Below are positions 6,098 to 50,032 of a stretch of DNA of 64,000 nt, piece after piece. Under the pieces are notes generated by a model. That model was not told where the DNA came from. It saw nothing but the letters and a program-made list of their open reading frames with translations, and made no database searches. Both the position numbers and the translations under genes were made by a program. Within the stretch, counting starts at the first letter, position 1. Each line of letters opens with the position of its first letter. Origin of the DNA: Methanocella arvoryzae MRE50. GTDB taxonomy: Archaea; Halobacteriota; Methanocellia; Methanocellales; Methanocellaceae. Location of the stretch: NCBI RefSeq assembly GCF_000063445.1, contig NC_009464.1:2728001-2792000 (forward strand), in the 5' to 3' direction.

Positions 6098-8061
6098 TTT
6101 TTCACCTCTGTGATGGTCGCCACATCGAGGATGGGGACGACTCTGCCGTTGCCCATGATCGTGACGCCTTCCAGGCCTTTGACGTTCTGCAGCAGCCCGC
6201 CGAGCGGCTTGACGAAGATCTCCTGCTGGCTCTCGATTGAGTCTACCAGCAGCGCAACTTTTTCCTCACCTTTCTCTACGACGACAGCCGTATGCCGTTT
6301 CAGTGAAGAGTCCACTTCTACGTCGAAGAACTTGTAGAGCCTGTATAGCGGCAGGATTGTGTCTCTGATTACGATGACCTCGTTACCGTTGATGGTCTTG
6401 ATGTCCTTGTCTTTCACGTATTCGGTTTCCACTACGTTGGTGATGGATATGGCGTACTTTTCCGCGCCCACGTTGACCAGCAGCGCCTGGACAATGGCGA
6501 TAGTCGGGGGGAGCTTCAGGATTGTTTTCGTACCCTTGCCCAGATGGGTTTCGATCTTCACTGTGCCGCCGAGGCTCTCGATCTTGGTCTTCACAATGTC
6601 CATGCCCACGCCCCGGCCGGAGACTTCCGTGACCCTGTCGGCGGTAGAGAGGCCGGGCTTGAAGATGAGCATGACTCCTTCTTCCTCGCTCATGGCATCT
6701 GCCTGAGCCTGAGTGATCAGGCCTTTATCAATCGCCTTCCTTTTCACCCGGTCCACATCGATGCCTTTGCCGTCGTCGATGATCTCGATGATGACGTTGC
6801 TTCTCTCCCTGCGGGCGATCAGCTGGATCTGGCCAGTAGCCGGCTTGCCCTGGGCGATCCGGTCTTCGGGCTTTTCGATGCCGTGGTCCACGGCGTTGCG
6901 GATCAGGTGGTTCAGCGGGTCGCTGATCTCGTCCAGCACTGTCCTGTCAAGCTCTGTGTCCTGGCCTTCGATGGTGAACTCGATCTCTTTGCCTTCTTTC
7001 TTGCTGATGTCCCGGACTATCCTGGGGAACCTGTTGAAAACGTGGTCTACCGGAAGCATGCGGATGCGCATGACTTCGTTCTGCAAATCCGTAATCGACC
7101 GGTCGACCATGCCGAGGGTCTCGTTCAGCTCATGGATACCCTGCTTGCCGCAAATCTCGAACAGCCGGCCTCTGCTGATCACCAGCTCGCCGACCAGGTT
7201 CATGATAATGTCCAGCCTGTCTATGTCGATGCGGACACTGTGGATCACTTTAGTCCCTTCTTTGCCCGCAGGCCTCGCCGGCCCTCCCGCAGCTTCCTTC
7301 CTCACTATCTCGGTGACCTTTGCGGCGCCAATCTCTGCCACATTCCTGGCTTTCTTCTCAATTTCCCCGGCAGTCCTGTCCGACTGCAGCAGGACCGTGA
7401 ACTCCTGCCCGAACCTCTCGTCTTCGATGTCCTTGATATCCGGCACCGTGCTGGCCACCTTGCCGATCTCAGAGAGCTGCTGGATGACCAGGAAGGCCCG
7501 GATACCCTTGAACTCGCAGGACTTCTCTACAGTCACGACGACCTCGAACTCTTTAGAGCCCGCAGCGGCGCCTGCCGGGATTGCCATGGACTGTACCTCC
7601 GGCGTATCTGCGGCAGCGTGAGCGGCGCCCGACGGCTGCGCTTCGTGGGCTTGCACTTGCGGCTGAGGACCGGAGCAGGCGCTGTTCACGTCCATGCTCT
7701 CGATCTCTTTCACGAGGGCTGCAACGTCGAGGCTGCCCGACTCTCCGGCCTCGATGGCGTCGACCATCGCCTCCAGCGTGTCCAGCGATTTGAAGAGAAC
7801 CGTCACGACTCTGGTATCGGCGACCAGCTGCCCGTTCCGGATCCTGTCGAATAGGTTCTCGGTCCTGTGGCAGAGCGTCTCCATCTCCTTAAAGCCCATT
7901 GATGCCGACATGCCTTTGAGCGTATGGGCCGATCGAAAGATCTCCTGGATCACGTCAGCGTCGGTGGGGCACTTCTCAAGCGCCAGCAGCGAACTGTTCA
8001 GGTTCTGCAGGTGCTCCCTTGCCTCGCTTACAAACATATCCCTGTATGCAGACATATCCAT
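6094..8061 (-). CDS. cheA: Chemotaxis histidine kinase CheA
   Basis: CheA phosphorylates itself and passes the phosphate to CheY and CheB. The 655-residue product has the full domain set: an HPt domain with the phosphorylated His46 in RSAHTLKG, an Ala/Pro linker, a P2-like region at about 165-255, the P3 dimerisation helices at about 270-335, the ATPase with HLIRNAVDHGIE, DDGKGID and GRGVGMD, and a C-terminal CheW-like domain from about residue 515. Domain length and motifs look normal. The cheB stop is 3 bases upstream of its ATG. Confidence 0.96.
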   Translation of the reverse strand: MDMSAYRDMFVSEAREHLQNLNSSLLALEKCPTDADVIQEIFRSAHTLKGMSASMGFKEMETLCHRTENLFDRIRNGQLVADTRVVTVLFKSLDTLEAMVDAIEAGESGSLDVAALVKEIESMDVNSACSGPQPQVQAHEAQPSGAAHAAADTPEVQSMAIPAGAAAGSKEFEVVVTVEKSCEFKGIRAFLVIQQLSEIGKVASTVPDIKDIEDERFGQEFTVLLQSDRTAGEIEKKARNVAEIGAAKVTEIVRKEAAGGPARPAGKEGTKVIHSVRIDIDRLDIIMNLVGELVISRGRLFEICGKQGIHELNETLGMVDRSITDLQNEVMRIRMLPVDHVFNRFPRIVRDISKKEGKEIEFTIEGQDTELDRTVLDEISDPLNHLIRNAVDHGIEKPEDRIAQGKPATGQIQLIARRERSNVIIEIIDDGKGIDVDRVKRKAIDKGLITQAQADAMSEEEGVMLIFKPGLSTADRVTEVSGRGVGMDIVKTKIESLGGTVKIETHLGKGTKTILKLPPTIAIVQALLVNVGAEKYAISITNVVETEYVKDKDIKTINGNEVIVIRDTILPLYRLYKFFDVEVDSSLKRHTAVVVEKGEEKVALLVDSIESQQEIFVKPLGGLLQNVKGLEGVTIMGNGRVVPILDVATITEVKK

Positions 8062-11803: not shown

Positions 11804-11974
11804 GACGATCGCTGCGCTGTGCTGGGACACAGATTTAACAGATTGTACAGATTGCACAGATGAACACAAAAGATAAAACAGGTAATGATCGCCACTATCC
11901 GACTGATTCGACGACCATCTGTCTAATCTGTCTAATCTGTACAATCTGTGTCCAGGCACAGCGCAGCGATCGTC
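11804..11974. repeat. Long imperfect inverted repeat built from CAGATT words
   Basis: The left arm (11804-11861) and right arm (11917-11974) are about 58 bases each and nearly complementary. The outer 15 or so bases of each arm (GACGATCGCTGCGC and its complement) pair perfectly. The inner parts are reiterated CAGATT words spaced 10-11 bases. The roughly 55-base loop is AT-rich. A hairpin this long in a gap suggests a non-autonomous mobile element or a structured repeat. No flanking target duplication was recognised. Confidence 0.8.
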
Positions 11975-12024: not shown

Positions 12025-12122
12025 AACTAGTGGGATAAGATCGTACTGTTTCTCTAATAAGGATAATTAGTTCCTTATTGTATAACGAAAACGAATTATG
12101 AGACAGCCATCTTGGCTCCTTA

Positions 12123-12297
12123 GCGTTCCATGAAAAATGAGCTCTTGGCGAGCTTGGCTCCTTGGCGTGCCTGGCGGTATTTTCGACTCACACAGGGCCA
12201 ACTTTCAATTTTTCATAGCCTCTACCTGAATACCACATTTTTCATAAGGCGAGTGCCTTGTAGTATTCCCGACCGATACAGGTCCAACTTTCAATTC
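12123..12297 (-). repeat. CTTGGCG-family dispersed repeat, copy 1
   Basis: Bases 12123-12229 match the reverse complement of 49334-49440 with one mismatch in 107. Beyond that, 12230-12297 contains a more degenerate second unit: GATACAGGTCCAACTTTCAATT resembles the CCCTGTATAGG...GTTGG part of unit 1 at 49 kb. The tract carries reiterated CTTGGC and CCTTGGCG words at its left end. It is non-coding; the open frame through it is a repeat artefact. Confidence 0.8.
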
Positions 12298-49097: not shown

Positions 49098-49211
49098 CCT
49101 CTTAACGTGGTAATAGCTCAGAGACATGGGGACTTCAAGTTGGACGTCCAAATTAGACCTTTTAAGCTCGCATTTCAGGCATTCCTGGTATGCGGACTCA
49201 AGCATGCCCGG
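49098..49211 (-). pseudogene. Relic of a GxxExxY-family (PD-(D/E)XK_3-like) gene
   Basis: Read on the minus strand, 38 codons encode GMLESAYQECLKCELKRSN then LDVQLEVPMSLSYYHV. This matches the conserved start of GxxExxY proteins (Gly, Glu and Tyr at the defining spacing, then the ELxxxxLxVxxEVPxxLxY pattern). A full family member is about 125 residues. Both sides here run into repeat sequence instead. Function of the family is not established; it resembles PD-(D/E)XK nucleases. The fragment is embedded in the repeat island. Confidence 0.75.
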
Positions 49212-49220
49212 GCCGCCAAG

Positions 49221-49440
49221 CACTCGCATTATGAAAAATGGGATATTTAGGTAGAGGCTATGAAAAATTAGAAGTTGGCCCTGTATAGGTCGAAAATACC
49301 GCCAAGCACTCGCTGGATGATAAATGGGGATTTTCAGGTAGAGGCTATGAAAAATTGAAAGTTGGCCCTGTGTGAGTCGAAAATACCGCCAGGCACGCCA
49401 AGGAGCCAAGCTCGCCAAGAGCTAATTTTTCATGGAACGC
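49221..49440 (+). repeat. CTTGGCG-family dispersed repeat, copy 2 (two tandem units)
   Basis: Unit 1 begins with CACTCGC at 49221 and unit 2 with CACTCGC at 49307, a period of 86 bases. Both contain AGGTAGAGGCTATGAAAAATT and GTTGGCCCTGT. Bases 49334-49440 match the reverse complement of 12123-12229 with one mismatch. From about 49390 to 49525 the sequence passes into reiterated GCCAAG and CTTGGCG words, on one strand and then the other, forming another inverted repeat. Confidence 0.85.
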
Positions 49441-49539
49441 CAAGGGGCCAAGCACGCCAAGCCCTTTTAATCAGGATCATGATAAAGAAGTCCTTGGCGT
49501 GCTTGGCTTCTTGGCGTTCCATGAAAAATCTGGGTCAGG

Positions 49540-49800
49540 GAGGTGTTGAGAGGTCGGAGGGGAGGTCGGAGAGGTTCATGGAGTTTAGCGAGAACGTTCA
49601 AGCTGGGAGGTCAGGGAGGTCATGGAGGTCAGAGAGGAGGTTATGTGAGTACCCCGAGGTCAGAGAGAATTAACTTAAAAAATCCTCACGGACCTTTCCA
49701 CACTCCCGGGCCTCTTCTCCGACCTCTGACCCTCTCGAACCTCCCAGCTTGAAAATCCTCTCAGAACTCCCGGGAACTCCCCAACCTCCAGAGGTTTTCA
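49540..49800. repeat. GGAGGTC-word inverted repeat
   Basis: The left arm (about 49540-49670) is built of GGAGGTC, GGTCGGAG and GGTCAGAG words. The right arm (about 49690-49800) uses their complements (GACCTCTGACC, CGAACCTCCCAGCTTG). A short AT-rich spacer (TTAACTTAAAAAATCC) separates them. CAAGCTGGGAGGT on the left pairs with ACCTCCCAGCTTG on the right almost perfectly. Open frames through it are low-complexity and not genes. Confidence 0.75.
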
Positions 49801-50032
49801 TCGGCTTAACTTGAAAAACCAGTTATCATGAGATGAGTGCTTGGCGGCCTTGCAACCATCACCCATGCAACACGTTTTTCATATGGGTCCATGGAGATAG
49901 GAGTACATGAGAGGGGCCGGAGGATCAGAGGGAACTTTTCTCGGGAGGGGTCGGGGGGTCCGGAGGATCAGAGAGGGGGAAGGTGAGGAGCCAGAGGATC
50001 AGGGAGAATAAGTTAAACTATATTGAACACCA

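Follow-up and report, generated by a model that had tools for sequence, protein, structure and literature searches.

Short oriented insertion cassettes nested in GCCAAG palindromes of Methanocella arvoryzae

The window analysed here, a stretch of 64,000 nt from the genome of Methanocella arvoryzae MRE50 (3,179,916 bp, one contig), carries a complete short cassette at one locus and, at another, a palindromic island whose arms are interrupted by a second short cassette, by an additional left part of such a cassette, and by a long cassette on the opposite strand (Table 1). The two complete short cassettes account for most of the inverted 107-nt match described in the original prediction. This match is real: window positions 49334-49440 equal the reverse complement of 12123-12229 at 106 of 107 positions, the single mismatch (A versus C) being at 49424, and the similarity extends to 131 nt with 94% identity (12111-12241 / 49322-49452). 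The truncated left part and the adjoining complete cassette form one 215-nt insertion, and a tandem copy of 86-87 nt lies at 49213-49396 (TRF period 87). A separate palindrome, composed of ACAGATT-type 9-mers and flanked by GATCGCTGCGCTGTGC, lies at window positions 11804-11974, and similar ones are found at loci L062 and L077.

Table 1. Cassettes and host palindrome at the two window loci (window coordinates)
Feature	Position	Strand	Description
Complete short-type (A) cassette	12127..12254	-	128 nt, ACTCG...CATGGA; copy 1 of the original prediction lies almost wholly inside
Extra, truncated left part of A cassette	49222..49307	+	Left end without a right end of its own
Complete short-type (A) cassette	49308..49436	+	129 nt, mostly covered by 49334-49440
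Complete long-type (C) cassette	49518..49838	-	321 nt, ends as in A
Host palindrome island	49211..49850	.	GGCCGCCAAGCAC-GCCAAG... loop ...CTTGGCGTGCTTGGCGGCC, arms interrupted by cassettes
Inner part of host palindrome	49437..49517	.	GCCAAG 9-mer array, loop, inverted array

The cassette family and its ends

The 107-bp match is far above chance, since a 21-nt core of the repeat has 55 genome-wide matches with at most three mismatches (27 and 28 on the two strands), as compared with none for the reversed control. The whole-genome search returned more than 100 partial matches to the repeat. The original prediction had the unit occurring twice and named a total of two copies with no defined ends as an outcome that would speak against it; the family in fact comprises dozens of copies, with 63 complete, sharply bounded cassettes in the genome, and the 107-bp repeat makes up the greater part of a single cassette in this large, diverging family. 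Nor do the two window copies form a special pair, the best relative of the 49.3-kb copy being located at genome position 1,733,353 (99.3% identity over the unit, versus 89.9% with the 12.1-kb copy).

The cassette ends were defined from aligned copies and from their counterparts in the sister species, and the cassettes were counted by searching the genome with each end and then pairing left and right ends. The left end is fixed as ACTCG-N3/4-ATGAAAA…TTTTCA-nGT…TATGAAAAAT, and the right end as ATTTTTCATGGA. The ATGAAAA and TTTTCA segments near the left end make a short hairpin, of weak fold, in most copies, and a 9-nt inverted match within the cassette, ATGAAAAAT / ATTTTTCAT, is subterminal rather than terminal. 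Short (A) cassettes, 47 in number, measure 118-130 nt, with 45 of them at 126-129 nt; the 16 long (C) cassettes measure 314-328 nt, mostly 321-325 nt, and have a GGAGGT-rich palindrome as their interior. The two types thus combine the same ends with unrelated interiors, and neither these interchangeable interiors nor the nesting of the cassette inside pre-existing palindromes had been foreseen in the original prediction. There is no transposase gene inside the cassette, and in the stretches around the matches no pair of left and right ends was found around a gene-sized interior; as in the classical description of a MITE, copy number is high and the ends are defined.

Insertion into host palindromes

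Degenerate GCCAAG 9-mers make up the host islands, which are large, imperfect palindromes located in intergenic regions and, according to crude gene calls, between convergent gene pairs in 22 of 51 cases. The most frequent insertion site, GCCAAGC^AC^GCCAAG, lies within the palindrome arms and is used in a single orientation: a forward GCCAAG array forms the left flank of 46 and the right flank of 54 of the 63 cassettes, and a reverse array is found on neither side of any of them. Most cassettes outside the arrays also have AGC-AC at their left border. The AC dinucleotide is present at both borders in most cassettes and once in empty sites, which limits any target duplication, a feature that the original prediction had suggested looking for, to at most 2 nt; the border AC may instead be part of the cassette. 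The nearest relative of a unit is not another unit of its own island (island mates rank 25-56), and the islands were therefore not built through local duplication; upkeep of the palindromes by arm-to-arm correction was rejected for the same reason.

Removal of the cassettes restores the symmetry of their hosts. In the window, excision of 49222-49436 restores the palindrome arm, and excision of both this segment and 49518-49838 leaves the arms GGCCGCCAAGCACGCCAAGGGGCCAAGCACGCCAAG / GGCCGCCAAGCACGCCAAGAAGCCAAGCACGCCAAG, a backbone that pairs arm to arm. Over all islands, the mean junction symmetry was 15.9 at zero shift versus 10.8 at random shifts (sd 0.39, maximum 11.8), and the optimum is sharp, with a drop within about 5 nt of the inferred borders. 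This restored symmetry is independent evidence both of insertion and of the position of the borders. A whole-island inverted-repeat score, calculated for the single window example, did not discriminate (21 of 200 controls were as high).

Empty sites, for which the original prediction had proposed a search, are present as uninterrupted sequences at other loci of the genome. A strict uninterrupted match elsewhere in the genome was found for 17 of 37 joined junctions, whereas 20 shuffles of the flanks gave 3-9 such matches and displacement of the breakpoints by 10-20 nt gave 0-4; because the array flanks are repetitive, some of these matches arise by chance, as they do in the shuffles. All of the empty sites are paralogous, coming from the same genome, and several of the comparisons rest on repetitive arrays; the best pair has a 323-nt insertion whose flanks match over 224 nt (96.0%) on one side and 103 nt (96.2%) on the other, and the second a 129-nt insertion between flanks of 213 and 111 nt (91%). 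No orthologous empty site was found for the two window loci, where synteny with the sister species is lost; synteny with this species was poor at the places tried.

Exchange at a single address was observed for a pair of loci separated by 9 kb (2.019 and 2.028 Mb), which share 98.6% identity over 2.7 kb of downstream flank. At this address one of them holds a short cassette where the other has a long one, and they differ also by a 33-nt CTTGGC-flanked insertion. The segmental duplication at genome 2.016-2.032 Mb (98.6%, 2.7 kb) is useful for dating island changes. A further, distinct family of insertions, about 343 nt long, was seen at genome 354495-355645 (L062) in comparison with L098 and L087, with TATAGTCATTTCTGAAACTTTTTGGAC-type inverted ends at its borders and an apparent TA duplication.

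Distribution in relatives and other phyla

The array pattern has 120 matches in this genome and 61 in one other species searched in the genus. Two other genera of the family gave no match, and of the remaining 291 genomes of the phylum sample only one had a match, a single one. In the sister species, a diverged cassette version of its own, alike in plan, gave about 30 matches. Genomes of other species contained no match to the exact 20-nt core.

Many bacterial phyla also contain the exact array pattern, which was detected there in over 100 stretches. AACC precedes 96 of 144 bacterial arrays, and 53 of the 144 are mirrored within 300 nt, as compared with 77 of 2,360 random pieces. The mirrored arrays are small intergenic palindromes, usually of the form AACC(GCCAAG..)n - loop - inverted, and are scattered sporadically across phyla. 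Viruses or plasmids as carriers were considered and rejected: the array pattern occurs in 28 viral stretches, and a consensus palindrome in one plasmid. Clustering of the GCCAAG arrays relative to other 9-mer families in other phyla was examined in too few cases to be informative. In a Phycisphaerae bacterium (L155, around 7793-7880), a GCCAAG palindrome occupies the centre of a ACGCAGATT palindrome, so that nesting of 9-mer palindromes occurs outside archaea too. In Sorangium cellulosum So ce26, a palindrome with the same flanks occurs twice (L148, L199); the copies are one 9-mer apart, a difference that suggests a copy-number change of the 9-mer.

No description of the GCCAAG host palindromes was found in open-access full text, and literature searches by sequence gave nothing relevant, the papers containing AACCGCCAAG / CTTGGCGGTT being mostly on nucleosome DNA. 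It is possible, if on balance doubtful, that the cassette and the host palindromes together represent an undescribed cross-phylum system, in which AACC-(GCCAAGNN)n … inverted arrays, known here from many bacterial phyla and one methanogen genus, would be landing sites for orientation-specific cassettes moved by a recombination activity distinct from known transposases. The host palindromes across many phyla are a question separate from that of the cassette.

Mechanism, alternatives and known systems

The repeat is likely, with a probability of about 0.8, to be a non-autonomous insertion cassette that has fixed ends, enters an (A)AGC-AC target in one orientation, and is moved in trans. The original prediction of a non-autonomous element, or of a repeat mobilised by an enzyme encoded elsewhere, is supported in its first part by the copies, ends and empty sites, and we infer the mover. 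An enzyme acting in trans would recognise the cassette ends together with the target motif, possibly moving folded single strands, as in IS200/IS605-type elements. The cassette would enter next to (A)AGC-AC, mostly in the arms of older GCCAAG 9-mer palindromes, the empty target being expected to read GCCAAGCACGCCAAG, and recombination between copies would add secondary shuffling. Neither a Y1/HUH transposase (PF01797) nor an IS110 recombinase (PF01548) was found in this genome, control genomes being positive for both, and REP/RAYT and IS110 were therefore rejected as movers. The mover may belong to a family outside Y1 and IS110, or may have been lost.

A narrower form of this reading, somewhat unlikely as it stands, takes the cassette for an IS200/IS605-derived PATE or REP-type repeat that has outlived its Y1 (HUH) transposase. 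Elements of this kind have been described from archaea (PMC3119063), and the short motif beside the left end, the left-end hairpin, the orientation-specific insertion and the lack of a clear target duplication would all agree with this origin. The sister species has a single Y1 gene; however, the cassette ends do not flank it, and this gene was rejected as the mover. In addition, the present genome has no Y1 gene, another genus possesses Y1 yet has no array-pattern matches, and the hairpin near the left end folds weakly. Homologous recombination or gene conversion between pre-existing islands, by template switching at GCCAAG hexamers and with no transposition, is an improbable sole cause, as cassettes are also found outside the arrays, at AGC-AC motifs, as their orientation relative to the target is fixed, as cassette lengths and ends agree to within a few nt for both of the unrelated interiors, and as conversion alone leaves the first arrival at new loci unexplained. 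Nevertheless, near-identical tracts shared between islands often end at GCCAAG, so that recombination probably adds shuffling, and part of the spread could be due to gene conversion between islands. The mosaics of unrelated units within an island also speak for this process, as do the exchange of A and C cassettes and the 33-nt insertion that separate the two recently duplicated loci.

By far the least probable alternative is a conserved structured RNA or regulatory hairpin under selection. The strong fold of the long type (z = -6.2 for window 49516-49840) and the intergenic, partly convergent setting of the islands would suit such a role, but the short cassettes fold no better than shuffled sequences (z about -1), the opposite arms do not evolve pairwise, and the positions display insertion and empty sites. 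A known conserved RNA gene, which the original prediction had named as a competing identity, was rejected, since no Rfam family reached its gathering score; microRNA matches below threshold were taken as chance hairpins.

The insertion cassette shares features with several described groups of small repeats. The IS605-related PATEs (PMC3119063) have a near-terminal palindrome and neither a target duplication nor an internal transposase gene. The cassette, too, has no transposase gene inside, its left-end ATGAAAA/TTTTCA may correspond to the near-terminal palindrome, and any target duplication would be of 2 nt at most; unlike PATEs, it occurs in a genome that lacks a Y1 gene, and no related autonomous element was found. 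The mosaic islands of palindromic intergenic repeats resemble REP/BIME with RAYT (PMC2817692), with the differences that no RAYT/Y1 transposase is present here and that the host repeat consists of a longer array of 9-mers. In the excerpts of the pneumococcal account (PMC3049150), BOX, RUP and SPRITE are likewise modular small repeats that are clustered, inserted into one another and enriched between convergent genes; there, however, BOX and RUP carry terminal inverted repeats and show target duplications, and those excerpts describe no oriented 9-mer target preference.

Judged by description, the cassette comes nearest to the small mobile repeats termed SMR-A in Haloquadratum walsbyi (PMC3119063), which are about 110 nt long, lack a transposase, reach a high copy number, and are inserted within palindromes of other repeats with no target duplication. 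Their mobilisation was called enigmatic, and different repeats were reported at the same position (PMC3119063). The cassette is similar in its short type of 126-129 nt with no coding gene, in its high copy number, in targeting palindrome arms of other repeats, and in same-position switches between repeats. Prominent terminal inverted repeats mark the SMR-A, whose targets are IS605-type elements and PATEs (PMC3119063), whereas the cassette has the subterminal ATGAAAAAT / ATTTTTCAT match, one end pair with two interiors, and GCCAAG 9-mer palindromes as targets. Because prominent terminal inverted repeats are absent, we do not class the cassette as an SMR-A, although, by description, it works like one. 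Transposase-free, palindrome-targeting small mobile repeats, of unexplained mechanism, had earlier come from one haloarchaeon. The family reported here adds a second, from a cultured methanogen, in which one end pair serves two interiors, empty sites are numerous and the sister species has a diverged counterpart; it opens the mobilising activity to experiment.
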